A stretch of 64,000 nucleotides of DNA from Candidatus Vesicomyidisocius sp. Agig_15_S12 (GCA_021730225.1 CP072532.1:269230-333229), one strand, 5' to 3'; counted from the first letter of the stretch, positions 45,579 through 51,285 are shown. Made by a program: numbers and translations. Notes: generated by a model not told the origin, from the letters alone.

Positions 45579-45878
45579 ATGAATAATACCATTAAAGTTG
45601 TTGCCGTTTGGTTGGTTGTTTTATGGATGTCGTATGTTTTTTTAAGCTCATTACCTTATATATTTACTGGTTATGTAATAGAATCCTTATATATCTTTTT
45701 TACTTTTGGCGCTTGGATGAGTTATTTTCTAGACAGCATGATAAGTAAATTATTTGTTCAAAATAGCTCTTATATGATTAATGGCTCTAAGTTATTTACT
45801 TCTTCAGTTGTGCTATTTCCTATGATTTTTTGGTATTTAAGAAAAGATTTACATTTCATTAATGGATTAATGGATTAA
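45579..45878 (+). CDS. Hypothetical membrane protein, first gene of the dioxygenase/decarboxylase operon
   Basis: An unrecognised 99-residue protein with about three hydrophobic segments (7-27, 33-55, 70-88). A good ribosome-binding site GGAGTAAAAAAC precedes the ATG. Its stop overlaps the start of a 57-residue membrane protein (TAATG), and the decarboxylase follows closely, so it probably belongs to the same operon. A transporter or anchoring role is conceivable but not shown. A short direct repeat (ATTAATGG three times) lies at its 3' end. Confidence 0.6.
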   Translation: MNNTIKVVAVWLVVLWMSYVFLSSLPYIFTGYVIESLYIFFTFGAWMSYFLDSMISKLFVQNSSYMINGSKLFTSSVVLFPMIFWYLRKDLHFINGLMD

Positions 45879-46051
45879 TGGTATTAGTGATTATGACGTA
45901 TTCAGTGTTGTTTTATTTATTTATTCCATTGGACTGGATAGTTAAGTGGAGTCAGAATGGGCAAATACAAACTAATTCAGGCTTGGAGAATGTAGTTTTT
46001 TCTATTTTAGTTTTAGGTGTTGTAATGTTTTTTCTCAATAAACGAGCTTAA
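45878..46051 (+). CDS. Small (57 aa) hypothetical membrane protein
   Basis: A short gene: ATG at 45878 overlaps the previous stop by 1 nt, and TAA is at 46049-46051. The product starts MVLVIMTYSVLFYLFIPLDW, has a polar middle (KWSQNGQIQTNSG) and a second helix (VVFSILVLGVVMFF) ending in NKRA. Two membrane helices, strong coupling and exact filling of the space before the decarboxylase argue for a real gene. No family recognised. Confidence 0.65.
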   Translation: MVLVIMTYSVLFYLFIPLDWIVKWSQNGQIQTNSGLENVVFSILVLGVVMFFLNKRA

Positions 46052-46055
46052 TTTG

Positions 46056-47441
46056 ATGCAAGATCAGGATGTTTTACAAAAAATAACCCAAGTCTTAGCT
46101 ATTTTAAATTTTAAAAAATCTAATCAACTTATTAATTATCAAACCATTAATAAGTTGGAAAAAACCTTAAATTTAAATAAACAAAATCCACAGTGTTGGG
46201 ATGAGATATTTACATGGGTAGAACAATATCTAGAATATTCTCCTAATACTAGTCATCCTGATTTTGCTAATCGTATGTGGGCTGGTGCTAATCAACCTTC
46301 TATTGTAGGTGAAATTGTAACTGCGCTAAGCAATACTTCAAATTGCACTTTTGAGTCTGCACCTGTTGCGACGTTAATGGAAAAATACATGATTAAACAA
46401 ATGCTTGATATAGTAGGTTTTAAAAATGGTGAAGGACAGATGACCACAGGATCTAGTAATGCCAATATGATTGCTATGATGGTTGCACGTAATCAAGCAT
46501 TGGAAAAGGTCAAAAAACAAGGATTATTTAACCAGAAATATTTGTTTGCTTTTGTTAATGAGGATGCACATTATTCATTAGACAAAGCAAGTAATATATT
46601 AGGTATTGGTACCAATCATTTAATTAAGGTAGCTACCCTTGAAGATGGCTCAATAAATACAACATTGCTTAATGAGAAAATCAATCAAATCAAACAACAA
46701 GGTGGCTTAGTATTTTTTGTTTGTGCAACATTAGGTACAACAGTACGAGGCGCTTATGACAATATTGAAGCGTTAACTATGCTGAAAAAGCAACACAATT
46801 TTTGGTTACATGGTGATGGTGCATGGGGTGGAGTGGCAATTATGAGTTTGAAATTAAAAAAGAAATTCTTAACAAGTATTGAGTCTCTAGATTCTTTTAC
46901 TATGGACTTTCATAAAATGTTGGGTAGTAATTTAATGTGTAATTTTTTATTGTTAAATCATAAACATTTATTATCATGTACTTGTGCAGATGGAGATGGT
47001 AGCTATATTTTTAGAGATAATGAGGTCGATTTGGGTATTGCTTCATTACAATGTGGTCGTCGTGTTGATAGTTTAAAATGGTTTTTGGATTGGAAATTCT
47101 ATACTAGGAAAGGGTTTTCTGATAGAGTTGAGAATTACTATCAACTGGCAAAATTTGCTGAAGATTTTATTAATGCTAATGTTGATTTAGAAATGGTACT
47201 TAAACGTACTTCCTTTAATGTATGTTTTCGCTTTAAAAGTAGTCATTCTAATAAAAATAATTTTAATCAATGCTTGCGTGATAGTTTATATCAGGGACAA
47301 CAAGCCTTACTAGCTTTAGCATACGTGAAAAAGAAATTAGTATTTAGATTGTTAATTAGTAATATTAATATGAATAAAGTGAAATTAGTTAGTTTGCTTA
47401 ATCGTTTGGTTAAGAGAGGAAAAGCATTAAATAATGTTTAA
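46056..47441 (+). CDS. PLP-dependent group II decarboxylase, glutamate/cysteine-sulfinate type
   Basis: The 461-residue enzyme belongs to the group II PLP decarboxylases. PLP features: LHGDGAWGG with the cofactor Asp, and SFTMDFHKML with the Schiff-base Lys287. The segment SLQCGRRVDSLKWFLDWK is characteristic of the glutamate decarboxylase / cysteine sulfinate decarboxylase branch. Because a cysteine dioxygenase gene overlaps its 3' end by 8 nt, cysteine sulfinate (to hypotaurine) is the favoured substrate; glutamate or aspartate (to beta-alanine) remain possible. Start chosen at the ATG at 46056, not the TTG just before it. Confidence 0.88.
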   Translation: MQDQDVLQKITQVLAILNFKKSNQLINYQTINKLEKTLNLNKQNPQCWDEIFTWVEQYLEYSPNTSHPDFANRMWAGANQPSIVGEIVTALSNTSNCTFESAPVATLMEKYMIKQMLDIVGFKNGEGQMTTGSSNANMIAMMVARNQALEKVKKQGLFNQKYLFAFVNEDAHYSLDKASNILGIGTNHLIKVATLEDGSINTTLLNEKINQIKQQGGLVFFVCATLGTTVRGAYDNIEALTMLKKQHNFWLHGDGAWGGVAIMSLKLKKKFLTSIESLDSFTMDFHKMLGSNLMCNFLLLNHKHLLSCTCADGDGSYIFRDNEVDLGIASLQCGRRVDSLKWFLDWKFYTRKGFSDRVENYYQLAKFAEDFINANVDLEMVLKRTSFNVCFRFKSSHSNKNNFNQCLRDSLYQGQQALLALAYVKKKLVFRLLISNINMNKVKLVSLLNRLVKRGKALNNV

Positions 47442-47922
47442 AGAAATTCAAAATACTTATTATACGCATTCAACTAATTTTGATTTTAAAATGTTATGTG
47501 TATTACTTCATGAGGAAAAATATGCTTTAGCTATTGAGAAAATAAAAATACTAACTTTAGAAATAGATTTAGAGACTTTATTATTTGATCAGTATAATTA
47601 CACAAGAAATATTATTATTAACAATAAAAGTTATTGGCTAGGTCTATTAAATTGGGATAAAGGAGCAATAACACGTATTCATGGACATCCAGACCGTGCT
47701 TTTATTTATGTAATTAAGGGTCAGTTAATGTGCAAAGATTTTGATAAGAATCCATTGACTAAGATTAGTAGTAGTACACTTGTTGATGGAACGTGTAAAT
47801 ATAGTAATAGTGTGAAAGGAAAAATGGATAATGATATTCATCAAATTAGTGCTATTGAGTTAAGCTTAAGTTTACATTTTTATTCCGATAACCCTATCAA
47901 AGGAGAAATTTTTGACTTCTAG
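47434..47922 (+). CDS. Cysteine dioxygenase
   Basis: A 162-residue cupin. The iron ligands fit cysteine dioxygenase: His83 and His85 (IHGHPD) and His136 (DIHQIS). Residues known from mammalian enzyme also match: YTRN with Arg58 (substrate carboxylate; rat Arg60) and Tyr150 in SLHFYS (rat Tyr157). The cysteine of the Cys-Tyr crosslink is absent, as in bacterial enzymes. It oxidises cysteine to cysteine sulfinate with O2. It overlaps the decarboxylase upstream and the ATP-grasp gene downstream, so the three products should act together. Confidence 0.83.
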   Translation: MFKEIQNTYYTHSTNFDFKMLCVLLHEEKYALAIEKIKILTLEIDLETLLFDQYNYTRNIIINNKSYWLGLLNWDKGAITRIHGHPDRAFIYVIKGQLMCKDFDKNPLTKISSSTLVDGTCKYSNSVKGKMDNDIHQISAIELSLSLHFYSDNPIKGEIFDF

Positions 47923-48721
47923 GTTAATTTTTTACTATATTTATTGGTCATTAAGACTTGGTATTCCACCTTGGTATTATTTTCAAATTAATGCTGAATG
48001 GTATAATAAAAAAAAAGGGTTTTATTCTAAAATTGATATGGATAAACGAATCCCTTTAAAATGGAGATTAAATCAAGATTATCTTGATAAAAACAATCCA
48101 CCTTGTAAATTTCCTGTGTTTTTAAAGCCAGAGTGGGGACAGAATTCTAATGGTATCAAAAGGATTGATTCAAGAGATGAATTTTTAGCTTTTAACCATA
48201 AAAAAAGTAAAATTCCTTATATTGTTCAAGAAGTGGCAATAGAAATGCAAGAATATGAGATTTTTTATATTCGAAATTCTGATAATGAAACACATTGTAT
48301 TACACTAACAATTACTCAAGTAATCAACCATTCAGGCGAGTCTTATCCTGTAAATAGTATTAATAACAAACAGGTAATTTATCAAGACTGTACATTAGAT
48401 TTCTCACTCTGTGAACTTAAAAAATTGCACAATCATTTGCAAGAATTACCATATTTTCGAATTGCCAGAGTGGGACTTAGATCCAATTCTAAACAAGATT
48501 TATTGAAAGGTATGTTTCATATTATTGAGGTTAATTTATTTGCACCATTTCCGATTAATCTACTAGATAATAGTATTTCAAAAAAAAATAAACATCAGTT
48601 TATTAAAGACAATATGTATCATCTTGTTAGAATTAGTAATACAACACCTAAGGAACATTTTAATCGTTTCGTATTTTTCAAAAAAGTCATTAAACATTAT
48701 CAATCAAAAGTTGAATTATGA
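47912..48721 (+). CDS. ATP-grasp-like protein 1
   Basis: A 269-residue protein with degenerate ATP-grasp character: the ATP-binding lysine region FPVFLKPEWGQNSNGI near residue 70, the IPYIVQEVAIEMQEYEIFY segment, and a C-terminal FHIIEVNLFAPFP with the metal-binding Glu/Asn. It starts with TTG at 47912 inside the cupin gene, giving a conserved-looking aromatic N-terminus; the next Met is about 40 residues on. Substrate unknown. It forms a pair with the next ATP-grasp gene (ATGA overlap), so the two may ligate successive groups to an amine or acid. Confidence 0.65.
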   Translation: MTSRLIFYYIYWSLRLGIPPWYYFQINAEWYNKKKGFYSKIDMDKRIPLKWRLNQDYLDKNNPPCKFPVFLKPEWGQNSNGIKRIDSRDEFLAFNHKKSKIPYIVQEVAIEMQEYEIFYIRNSDNETHCITLTITQVINHSGESYPVNSINNKQVIYQDCTLDFSLCELKKLHNHLQELPYFRIARVGLRSNSKQDLLKGMFHIIEVNLFAPFPINLLDNSISKKNKHQFIKDNMYHLVRISNTTPKEHFNRFVFFKKVIKHYQSKVEL

Positions 48722-49617
48722 AGTATTGGTTGCATCGATTTTTGTCACGATTTTTTTTATCAGGATGTAGTGATTATAATCCACTTAAAATACGCCGTGC
48801 TTGTCGTTCTAAAGCTCAAGCTAGAATGGCTTTTAAGGAAAATAATTTTCCTTACGCTCAAGGTAGAATATTTATTAATCCTATTAGTGCATTTAAATTT
48901 GCTAAAAAAAATGGGTTTCCTTTAGTTGTTAAACCTAATGTTGGTGGGTTTTCCAGAGGAGCGTATTTTCCTATTAACACTTATATGCAATTAGCCAAAG
49001 CCAGTTTAAGCGTTAAAAAATGGTGGTTAGTGAGTATTGTTGAGAAATATTTATTGGGTAAAAATTATCGTATAGTTATGACTAAGTTTGGAGTAATGTC
49101 GATACTTAGACGCTACCCTCCTTTTGTTATCGGTGATGATGTGAGTGATATAACTAAGTTGATTAATGACGAGAATCTTGTTAGAAAAAAGATGGATTTA
49201 TCGCCAATTATTAAACCTATACCTAAAAATTTAGCAATTAAACAATATTTAAAGAAACAACAAATGAATTTATCTAGTATTCCTAAGGTTGGACAGAAGG
49301 TGTATTTACATAACAAAATATCATTAAAATTAGGCTCTAGTATTGAAATTATTGATAAGAAAATATTAACTGAAAAAAATAGAAAAGATTTGAAAAAGAT
49401 ACTCAATTTTTTTGATGCTAATATTTTAGGTATTGATGTGATTTGTAAGAAAGGTATTGAGATTGACTTTAATGCACAAGCTTGTATTTTTTTAGAACTT
49501 AATTCACGTCCATTTTTAGCAATGCATAATAAGCCTAGATATGGAAAAAGTGAAGATTTATCAATTTTCTATCATCAATTAGATAAAATACAAATTTTTG
49601 ATCATGGAGAGTATTAA
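48718..49617 (+). CDS. ATP-grasp ligase 2, cyanophycin-synthetase-like
   Basis: A 299-residue ATP-grasp protein. SKAQARMAFKENNFPYAQG and GFPLVVKPNVGGFSRGAYF form the ATP-binding half; VEKYLLGKNYRIVM and FLELNSRPFLAMHNKPRYGK (metal-binding Glu and Asn) are close to the ATP-grasp part of cyanophycin synthetase and GshAB. There is no Mur-ligase domain. Such enzymes make amide bonds through acyl phosphates. Within this operon it may couple a carboxylate to an amine such as hypotaurine, which is inference. Confidence 0.78.
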   Translation: MKYWLHRFLSRFFLSGCSDYNPLKIRRACRSKAQARMAFKENNFPYAQGRIFINPISAFKFAKKNGFPLVVKPNVGGFSRGAYFPINTYMQLAKASLSVKKWWLVSIVEKYLLGKNYRIVMTKFGVMSILRRYPPFVIGDDVSDITKLINDENLVRKKMDLSPIIKPIPKNLAIKQYLKKQQMNLSSIPKVGQKVYLHNKISLKLGSSIEIIDKKILTEKNRKDLKKILNFFDANILGIDVICKKGIEIDFNAQACIFLELNSRPFLAMHNKPRYGKSEDLSIFYHQLDKIQIFDHGEY

Positions 49618-50173
49618 TAAAAAATATCTTTTTTATAGTTTTATTTTGCTTAATGTTTCTTTGGTAGTTTATTTTTACTTAAATCGGGATAATATTGATC
49701 CAGCTATGCTTAAAGACTTCCTAAGTGGAAAAAATTTTTTAACTTCTTATTTAGTGTATATTTTAATACTGATTATTAGGGGTTTGACATTTTTGCCTGG
49801 AGCTATATTCTTATTAGCAGGTATTTATCTTTTCTCTTTTATACAGGTATTTTTTGCTATTCAAATAGCGATTGTAAGTTATTGTTTAATTATTTATAAT
49901 TTTTCTCATAAACTTAATTTCAGAGTACCAGAAAAAATACTTCAGTTTGAACAGGAAATTAAAAGCAAAGAAACTTCCATTATTTTTGTATTATGTTTTA
50001 TTCCTGGTATTTCGATTAATATATTGATTTATTTTTTATCAGTTATTGATATTAAACTCAAAAATATTCTGATAGGTGTTATTGCTGGAACCTCTGTCAC
50101 TTCAATTATTTATATTTCAATTATCACAGGTATTTTTAACTCAAGTTATTATTTTTCGAGTTTTTTTAAATAA
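49604..50173 (+). CDS. TVP38/DedA-like membrane protein
   Basis: A 189-residue protein with about five hydrophobic segments, started at the ATG at 49604 (14-nt overlap with the ATP-grasp gene; a TTG 6 nt earlier is possible). RGLTFLPGAIFLLAGIYLFS and the later FIPGISINILIYFLSV resemble the re-entrant loops of the VTT (TVP38/DedA) family, some of which flip lipids. As the last gene of the operon it could export or position the operon's product. The family match is weak. Confidence 0.6.
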   Translation: MESINKKYLFYSFILLNVSLVVYFYLNRDNIDPAMLKDFLSGKNFLTSYLVYILILIIRGLTFLPGAIFLLAGIYLFSFIQVFFAIQIAIVSYCLIIYNFSHKLNFRVPEKILQFEQEIKSKETSIIFVLCFIPGISINILIYFLSVIDIKLKNILIGVIAGTSVTSIIYISIITGIFNSSYYFSSFFK

Positions 50174-51285
50174 AAGATGTTTTTATGAAAGTAAGGTTTG
50201 AATTATGAAAGTATGGAGGGGAGAGGCAATAGTATTTTTCCAACATTAAAATGTAATAAAAATACTTTTATTACTGGTATTATTATTTATTCTTGTGGCG
50301 TAAAAAAGCTGTGAGCACCTATAAATATTATGTTAGATTAGTTCTAAAAAGTAGTTTCTTTGTTGCTATGAATGAAATTTATTAATTTCAACCTGAATAG
50401 GAAAATACAAAAATTAAGATAATTAATTTATTTGTAGAATAGTTTAACAAAATTTGTATTCATTCAACATGAATAAAGATATTACTTTTACAGTAGATAT
50501 AGTTAACGACGTTAGGTGTAGCAATAACTAATCTAGTTATTGCTATTGTGTTTATGCCATTAATTAGATAATGGTAATCATTAGAGAATAAAAACTTATT
50601 AAGGCAAGTTCTAAATTATTAATAGTTTGTGTATAAAATACCCACACTGACTAAAGATTTTAATTAAATCATGTATTGTCAATAAATTCTTGCATTGTAA
50701 TATTTTATTATTACTATATTTAGAATTTACTAAGTATATTATTGAATAATAAGTATTTTGTTTTGCTTAATTGGTAATTAAGGTAGGTTTATTCGAAGAA
50801 TATTTTCAAGTGATATTTACTAATAGTGAAAATTCATAAAAAGTTATTACTGATTCAAGGATGTTATTTTTAATTTTATTAGTTTTGTACGAGTAGGTTG
50901 GATACTTAAATCCTAGTTTGTAACAGATATACTATGTGTGTTAGAGAACTAGTAAGTAGTATTATCGATTATTTTTGATGAGTATGGTAAAAAATAGATC
51001 TTAATTCATTAGATGATATAATCGCTAAGAAAATAATTCTTAACACGGAACTCTTCAAATGGTTAATCACTTCAATCTTTTCACTAATGTATAAAAACTA
51101 TAGATACATACCATAAGTGTAAATAGTCATTGTACTATATAAATTACTTGTTTAGTATGATAAAACCCCCCTTTAATCATATTTAAAATCCATCCATCTA
51201 TCTGTCTATCCGTTTATATTACTTCAGGATTATTAGTATTGGTGATATTAACTAATACTTCCCTTATACACGCTATTTTTTAGTA
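50174..51285. other. 1.1-kb decayed region
   Basis: No open gene. A perfect 12-bp hairpin (50519-50530 / 50534-50545, loop ATC) is present. Coding-like pieces include IDLNSLDDIIAKKIILNTEL (near 50995-51060, plus strand) and, on the minus strand just after msbA, FYHTKQVIYIVQ followed by LFTLMVCIYSFYTLVKR, which faintly resembles an LpxK N-terminus, the usual neighbour of msbA. Neither is secure. A run of degenerate ATCC/ATCT units lies at 51188-51211. Confidence 0.4.

Follow-up and report, generated by a model that had tools for sequence, protein, structure and literature searches.

The locus at 45579-50173 of the window, by which we mean the whole 64,000-nucleotide stretch analysed here, raises the question of what a bacterial symbiont might make with a cysteine dioxygenase (CDO), a decarboxylase of acidic amino acids and two ATP-grasp ligases packed into one operon. 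The window belongs to a complete genome of 1,033,397 bases of the vesicomyid clam symbiont type, whose nearest relatives are Ca. Vesicomyosocius (decarboxylase 96-97% identical), Ruthia and Ruthturnera. The seven close-packed ORFs of the original prediction were confirmed, all on the plus strand and with neighbours overlapping by 1-20 bases or separated by a 1-base gap, but they do not correspond to seven genes: the first two (45579-45878 and 45878-46051) form one DoxX-like membrane protein gene (45579-46051) that shifts frame at the ATTAATGG triplet repeat, where three head-to-tail copies occupy 45857-45882. In relatives this gene is a single open frame, of 153-158 aa in L166, L154, L003, L004, L007, L010 and others, and in L154 it also stands upstream of the ligases; its product matches DoxX_2 with E values of 4e-4 to 1e-3, under the curated cut-off. 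The operon has six genes rather than seven, and the DoxX-like one is broken in this genome. A chance arrangement is excluded, given a gene order kept across phyla and dN/dS values of 0.07-0.16 in four of the genes. Downstream, the 1.1 kb between the operon's last gene and an ABC transporter (50174-51285) contains no ORF of more than about 40 aa; it looks like eroded genes, because parts of it match the downstream regions of L003 and L004 at 65-80%, and the corresponding gap in L002 is about 100 bases.

The cupin gene (47434-47922, plus strand) was assigned to CDO on the basis of a PF05995 (CDO_I) match above the cut-off (2e-7, 31.2 bits, cut-off 23) and of its catalytic residues. Alignment with rat CDO located YTRN (Tyr58 and Arg60 of the rat enzyme), HGH, the third His (IH) and SLHFY, so that the three Fe-binding histidines, the Arg60/Tyr58 pair and the Ser-His-Tyr157 triad are all accounted for. 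The residues on which the original prediction had relied (three His, the YTRN arginine and the C-terminal Tyr) were borne out, and the full set supports its reading of the cupin as CDO. The elements YxR, HxH, third His and SxHxY are conserved in CDO across the symbionts, SAR324 and Desulfobacterota. PF05995 alone proved insensitive for this CDO, missing full-length genes that were found by tblastn (e.g. in G039), and its absences were not used.

The decarboxylase gene (46053-47441, plus strand) encodes a PLP-dependent enzyme of the GAD/CSAD/GADL1 group (PF00282, Pyridoxal_deC, 1.5e-69) with an invariant H-K motif at the catalytic Lys; its nearest solved structures are GADL1, GAD65, GAD67 and CSAD, and its top PDB sequence match is mouse GADL1 (6enz, E 4e-66). 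The specificity triad is W76/S96/C98, which is neither the F/S/Y reported for CSAD nor the S/N/F reported for GAD65/67, letters that agree with the PDB sequences of these enzymes. Substrate choice in this group has been tied to three positions (Agnello et al. 2013, as cited in PMC8153620), and work on GADL1 shows that minor pocket changes can tip it towards Asp or towards cysteine sulfinate (PMC7367687). With a bulky first residue and a Ser, as in CSAD and GADL1, W/S/C would fit Asp-sized acids rather than Glu, and it is nearly invariant throughout the clade, whether CDO is present or not. Identity as a diaminobutyrate decarboxylase was rejected (NF052646, 157 bits against a cut-off of 900). 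On the model of the PanP-type PLP aspartate 1-decarboxylase (TIGR03799) the window enzyme scores 126 bits against an equivalog cut-off of 606, and the S/N/F triad of glutamate decarboxylase GAD65/67 is absent from it.

Phylogenetically, the closest branch to the W/S/C clade is its sister group of decarboxylases paired with CDO in two Gammaproteobacteria (99/97); the animal GAD, CSAD and GADL1 enzymes lie apart and cluster together (98/98). The CDO-linked members form no single group, and standalone copies from Desulfobulbales are intermixed with them. The enzyme is of the GAD/CSAD type, as had been proposed, but it lacks the CSAD triad and lies outside the animal CSAD clade. The LQCGRRVD segment cited in favour of that proposal is present, but it is not diagnostic of CSAD, because the whole group has it, including relatives that replace PanD. 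As for the grouping with aspartate or diaminobutyrate decarboxylases, which the original prediction had regarded as adverse, half of it was found: the CDO-less relatives behave as aspartate 1-decarboxylases.

This behaviour is seen in the distribution of PanD. Of 146 Desulfobulbales genomes surveyed, 35 have the decarboxylase and 105 have PanD; 2 of these carry both, and a further 8 carry neither (Fisher 8e-23, a value inflated by the relatedness of the genomes). A need for beta-alanine follows from pantoate ligase, which is present in 44 of the 45 genomes checked for it. Complementation of E. coli panD has been shown for DVU0867, a PF00282 member from Desulfovibrio vulgaris (PMC10102598). The two genomes that carry both genes (G084 and G167) have CDO-linked decarboxylases, and across 31 Desulfobulbales examined PanD accompanies 2 of 3 CDO-linked decarboxylases versus none of the 28 unlinked ones (Fisher 0.006). 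This difference makes it very likely that the standalone enzymes work as aspartate 1-decarboxylases and that those linked to CDO have a different main job; coexistence with PanD is as expected if the main product beside CDO is not beta-alanine. In Desulforhopalus singaporensis a truncated ATPg1 remnant adjoins the decarboxylase (L035), a sign that some of the standalone copies, if not all, may be derived from the ligase cluster.

Within the symbiont family, most carriers of the decarboxylase keep PanD, and the genome of the window has an intact PanD alongside it. The genomes of decarboxylase-bearing genera that have no intact PanD (G035, G041, G001, G002 and G003) all retain the decarboxylase (p = 0.02); in G041, panD has an internal deletion. 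Two vesicomyid symbionts, G035 (whole genome) and G041 (L184), keep panC and the decarboxylase with panD lost or internally deleted. The family genus g5 (G005-G033) is mostly without PanD and without this decarboxylase, and several of its genomes have a PLP decarboxylase of about 25% identity that could supply beta-alanine. Dual use of Asp and cysteine sulfinate is likely and would explain the PanD patterns of both Desulfobulbales and the symbiont family; the window enzyme most likely takes both substrates and, beside CDO, makes hypotaurine.

Both ligases retain the ATP-grasp motifs, a glycine-rich KPxxG loop and a Mg-binding E-x-N; both score under the Pfam cut-offs, and their identity as ATP-grasp proteins is based on NCBIfam matches, fold and motifs. 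ATPg1 (47912-48721, plus strand), a divergent protein with a D-Ala-D-Ala ligase/LysX-like fold, has an invariant KPxWGQN loop as well as the E-x-N motif. It does not reach the cut-off of the D-Ala-D-Ala ligase family PF07478 (16.3 bits, cut-off 24), and a search against PDB sequences gave no significant match (best E 0.025). Its AlphaFold2 model (mean pLDDT 90) matches ArgX with Z 13.6, within a range of 12.5-13.6 for D-Ala-D-Ala ligase and ArgX-LysX. ATPg2 (48718-49617, plus strand; 299 aa) consists of the ATP-grasp part only, without the Mur-ligase-like half. Its model (pLDDT 79) matches the ATP-grasp domain of CphA1 (Z 20.6) and that of GshAB, and it is structurally close to RimK, PsnB and MdnC as well as CphA. 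Together with 124 bits on the cyanophycin synthetase model TIGR02068, where the equivalog cut-off of 850 is not reached, this bears out the expected likeness of one ATP-grasp protein to the cyanophycin synthetase ligase half.

The last gene of the operon (49598-50173, plus strand) encodes a VTT/DedA-like membrane protein (VTT_dom PF09335, 35.3 bits, above the cut-off of 33.9). The VTT-like protein of the original prediction is thus present in the symbiont family, but only there; elsewhere the slot is filled by an MFS transporter (L014, L024, L032, L039, L052, L055, L058, L059 and L153-L161). Several further features were observed around the ligases. A gene for a secreted YHS-domain protein repeatedly adjoins the cluster in lineages far apart (L154, L155, L156, L157, L032, L059, L005, L006 and L009); none was found downstream of the operon within the window, where relatives have one. 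In one gammaproteobacterial family, a gene for a retropepsin-like (gag-type) aspartyl protease lies just upstream of the ligase pair (L159, 6886-7422; L160, 7077-7610). In one assembly of a Bathymodiolus symbiont (L007, 11854-13562), both ATP-grasp genes are disrupted by frame changes.

The ligase unit was found in diverse Gammaproteobacteria, SAR324 and Desulfobacterota, with ATPg1 profile matches in 11 of 369 gammaproteobacterial and 5 of 52 SAR324-phylum genomes, and ATPg1 is nearly always followed by ATPg2 and then by the MFS protein. The order decarboxylase-CDO-ATPg1-ATPg2 is kept in the symbiont family, SAR324, Desulfobacterota and Thiolapillus, so that the predicted link between the CDO-decarboxylase pair and the two ATP-grasp genes holds in several phyla. 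Other loci have the ligase pair and MFS gene with a decarboxylase and no neighbouring CDO (L014, L024 and L052), or with neither nearby (L154-L161). Eight gammaproteobacterial genomes have ligases without decarboxylase or CDO in the neighbourhood; in three of these genomes (G287, G429 and G496) a decarboxylase-CDO operon lies at another locus, its decarboxylase having an F/S/Y or W/S/Y triad. Among the 369 Gammaproteobacteria, all five CDO matches with an adjacent decarboxylase fall in the 11 ATPg1-bearing genomes (hypergeometric 8e-9), one of the five operons having the F/S/Y triad. The three operons unlinked to ligases are likewise all in ATPg1 genomes (3/3, 1e-5), a result that is partly circular in that these three CDOs were part of the search profile; with a CDO profile lacking them, G429 and G496 still rank right after the two symbionts. 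Among ligase-bearing genomes, the decarboxylase search returned zero matches in G396, G506 and G591, and the CDO search returned zero in these three and in G482, G598 and G533. A search of plasmids gave no match to ATPg1, only distant CphA/GshAB-like matches to ATPg2 (Legionella, Agrobacterium) without related neighbours, and only 27-31% homologues of the decarboxylase, one checked example of which adjoins a diaminobutyrate transaminase. As judged from gene content, the conserved unit is ATPg1, ATPg2 and the MFS transporter (the VTT protein in the symbiont family), and CDO and decarboxylase form an optional supply module, since one or the other is frequently absent where the two ligases are found.

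Retention in a shrunken genome, which the original prediction had taken as a sign of importance to the symbiosis, proved a weak argument. An intact close decarboxylase (65-100% identity) is present in 19 of 83 genomes of the symbiont family, with none of this type in the large genus g5, and within the window's own genus it is kept in 6 of 12 genomes but broken or missing in the other 6 (L084-L086 among the loci checked); in its favour, all four genomes of about 1.0 Mb in that genus keep it. G039 has open CDO and ATPg1 frames together with a broken decarboxylase. Where retained, the decarboxylase, CDO and both ligases are under purifying selection, their dN/dS values being similar to that of a neighbouring gene. 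For the VTT gene, comparison with L002 suggests relaxed selection (dN/dS 0.82, with low dS).

We propose the following pathway, to which we assign about an even chance: the operon makes and uses hypotaurine (or beta-alanine), the two ligases add amino acids and the product is exported. CDO would convert cysteine to cysteine sulfinate, a step well supported by its residues, and the PLP decarboxylase could plausibly convert cysteine sulfinate to hypotaurine (2-aminoethanesulfinate), and probably also aspartate to beta-alanine. As suggested by their fold and conserved linkage, the ligases would next couple the amine of hypotaurine to one or two amino acids, presumably through the carboxylate-phosphate chemistry of D-Ala-D-Ala ligase, glutathione synthetase and cyanophycin synthetase. 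The product would be a small amide that resembles a peptide and ends in a sulfinate; its export may fall to the membrane protein encoded next to the ligases (VTT in this genome, MFS in other lineages), as the conserved linkage suggests. Counting against hypotaurine, the triad differs from the one published for CSAD and recurs in the PanD-replacing relatives. Because the ligases occur without decarboxylase or CDO, hypotaurine is not the only possible substrate unless it is imported; the substrate may be imported hypotaurine or taurine, or ordinary beta-alanine.

The PanD data also allow the decarboxylase to be mainly an aspartate 1-decarboxylase, with ligases that build a beta-alanine peptide and a CDO that is accessory (cysteine control or another step), which we regard as possible but rather unlikely. 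The exclusion of PanD in Desulfobulbales, the near-universal pantoate ligase, the symbionts that keep the decarboxylase without intact PanD, the complementation by DVU0867 and the three loci with decarboxylase and ligases but no adjacent CDO all agree with such a role. It leaves the linkage of CDO in many lineages unexplained, however; two of the three Desulfobulbales with a CDO-linked copy, and most symbionts, have PanD as well, and the Fisher value for exclusion is inflated by kinship.

That the pathway stops at hypotaurine or taurine, serving as a compatible solute or in sulfide handling, with unrelated ATP-grasp genes sharing only the transcript, appears improbable. Bacterial CDO-CSAD taurine pairs are established (Agnello et al. 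2013, as cited in PMC8153620) and taurine-related compounds are proposed as sulfide detoxifiers in vent animals (PMC10548688), but the same two ligases accompany the pair across phyla and co-occur with it even when unlinked. We consider it very improbable that the ligases tag a macromolecule (a protein C-terminus or an envelope component) in a RimK-like manner with hypotaurine, beta-alanine or amino acids. The modelled proximity of ATPg2 to RimK, PsnB and MdnC would suit this role, and the aspartyl protease gene upstream of the ligases in L159 and L160 recalls the ligase-protease pairings RimK-RimB and RloC-RloA (PMC12239564); that protease is limited to one family, however, the conserved neighbourhood shows no precursor peptide, and an MFS transporter encoded beside the ligases points to a small molecule.

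Hypotaurine and thiotaurine have an important part in the sulfide tolerance of vent and seep animals, and a symbiont source or conjugate would for this reason matter to the symbiosis. The proposed pathway would define a small-molecule route that combines two ligase families outside curated equivalogs with a probable exporter and, optionally, supply by CDO and the decarboxylase. A bolder extension, which we think unlikely, is a new class of exported peptides ending in hypotaurine, sulfinate analogues of glutathione-type peptides, which a dedicated pair of ATP-grasp ligases would make in bacteria of the sulfur cycle and in symbionts of sulfide-exposed animals; such peptides might carry sulfane sulfur or act as a symbiont-host redox buffer. 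The comparison also points to a new substitute for PanD in Desulfobulbales and, with the ATP-grasp remnant in Desulforhopalus singaporensis, to a plausible way in which a decarboxylase of the cysteine-sulfinate type could have been recruited to coenzyme A supply.

Among known systems, the nearest is the CDO-CSAD operon for bacterial taurine described in Synechococcus sp. PCC 7335 (Agnello et al. 2013, as cited in PMC8153620), where CDO likewise adjoins a GAD/CSAD-group decarboxylase; the window differs in having W/S/C instead of F/S/Y, two ATP-grasp ligases, and DoxX-like and VTT/MFS genes in addition. Mouse GADL1, the best PDB sequence match, shares the aromatic and Ser pocket, but it is an animal enzyme of a separate clade with Tyr/Tyr where the window enzyme has Trp/Cys. 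GADL1 takes Asp and cysteine sulfinate, and its beta-alanine enters ligase-made peptides (carnosine) (PMC7367687, PMC5947694). The Vibrio enzyme PanP and DVU0867, PLP-dependent aspartate decarboxylases that substitute for PanD, share the PF00282 fold, and the window enzyme's CDO-unlinked relatives replace PanD in Desulfobulbales; the window enzyme's score on the PanP model is far below the cut-off. ATPg2 resembles the ATP-grasp domains of CphA1/CphA2 and GshAB in fold and sequence, but without the Mur-ligase-like half and well under the equivalog cut-off, and ATPg1 resembles D-Ala-D-Ala ligase and ArgX-LysX in fold and motifs, but below Pfam cut-offs and without close PDB sequences. A literature search, with most subscription papers outside its scope, returned no report combining ATP-grasp ligases with CDO and a taurine-type decarboxylase. 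The original claim that no system of this composition had been described is therefore too broad for the CDO-CSAD part, but stands for the ligase combination in the literature searched. The parts, CDO-CSAD pairs and ATP-grasp ligases, are of familiar kinds, and what appears to be new is their combination.
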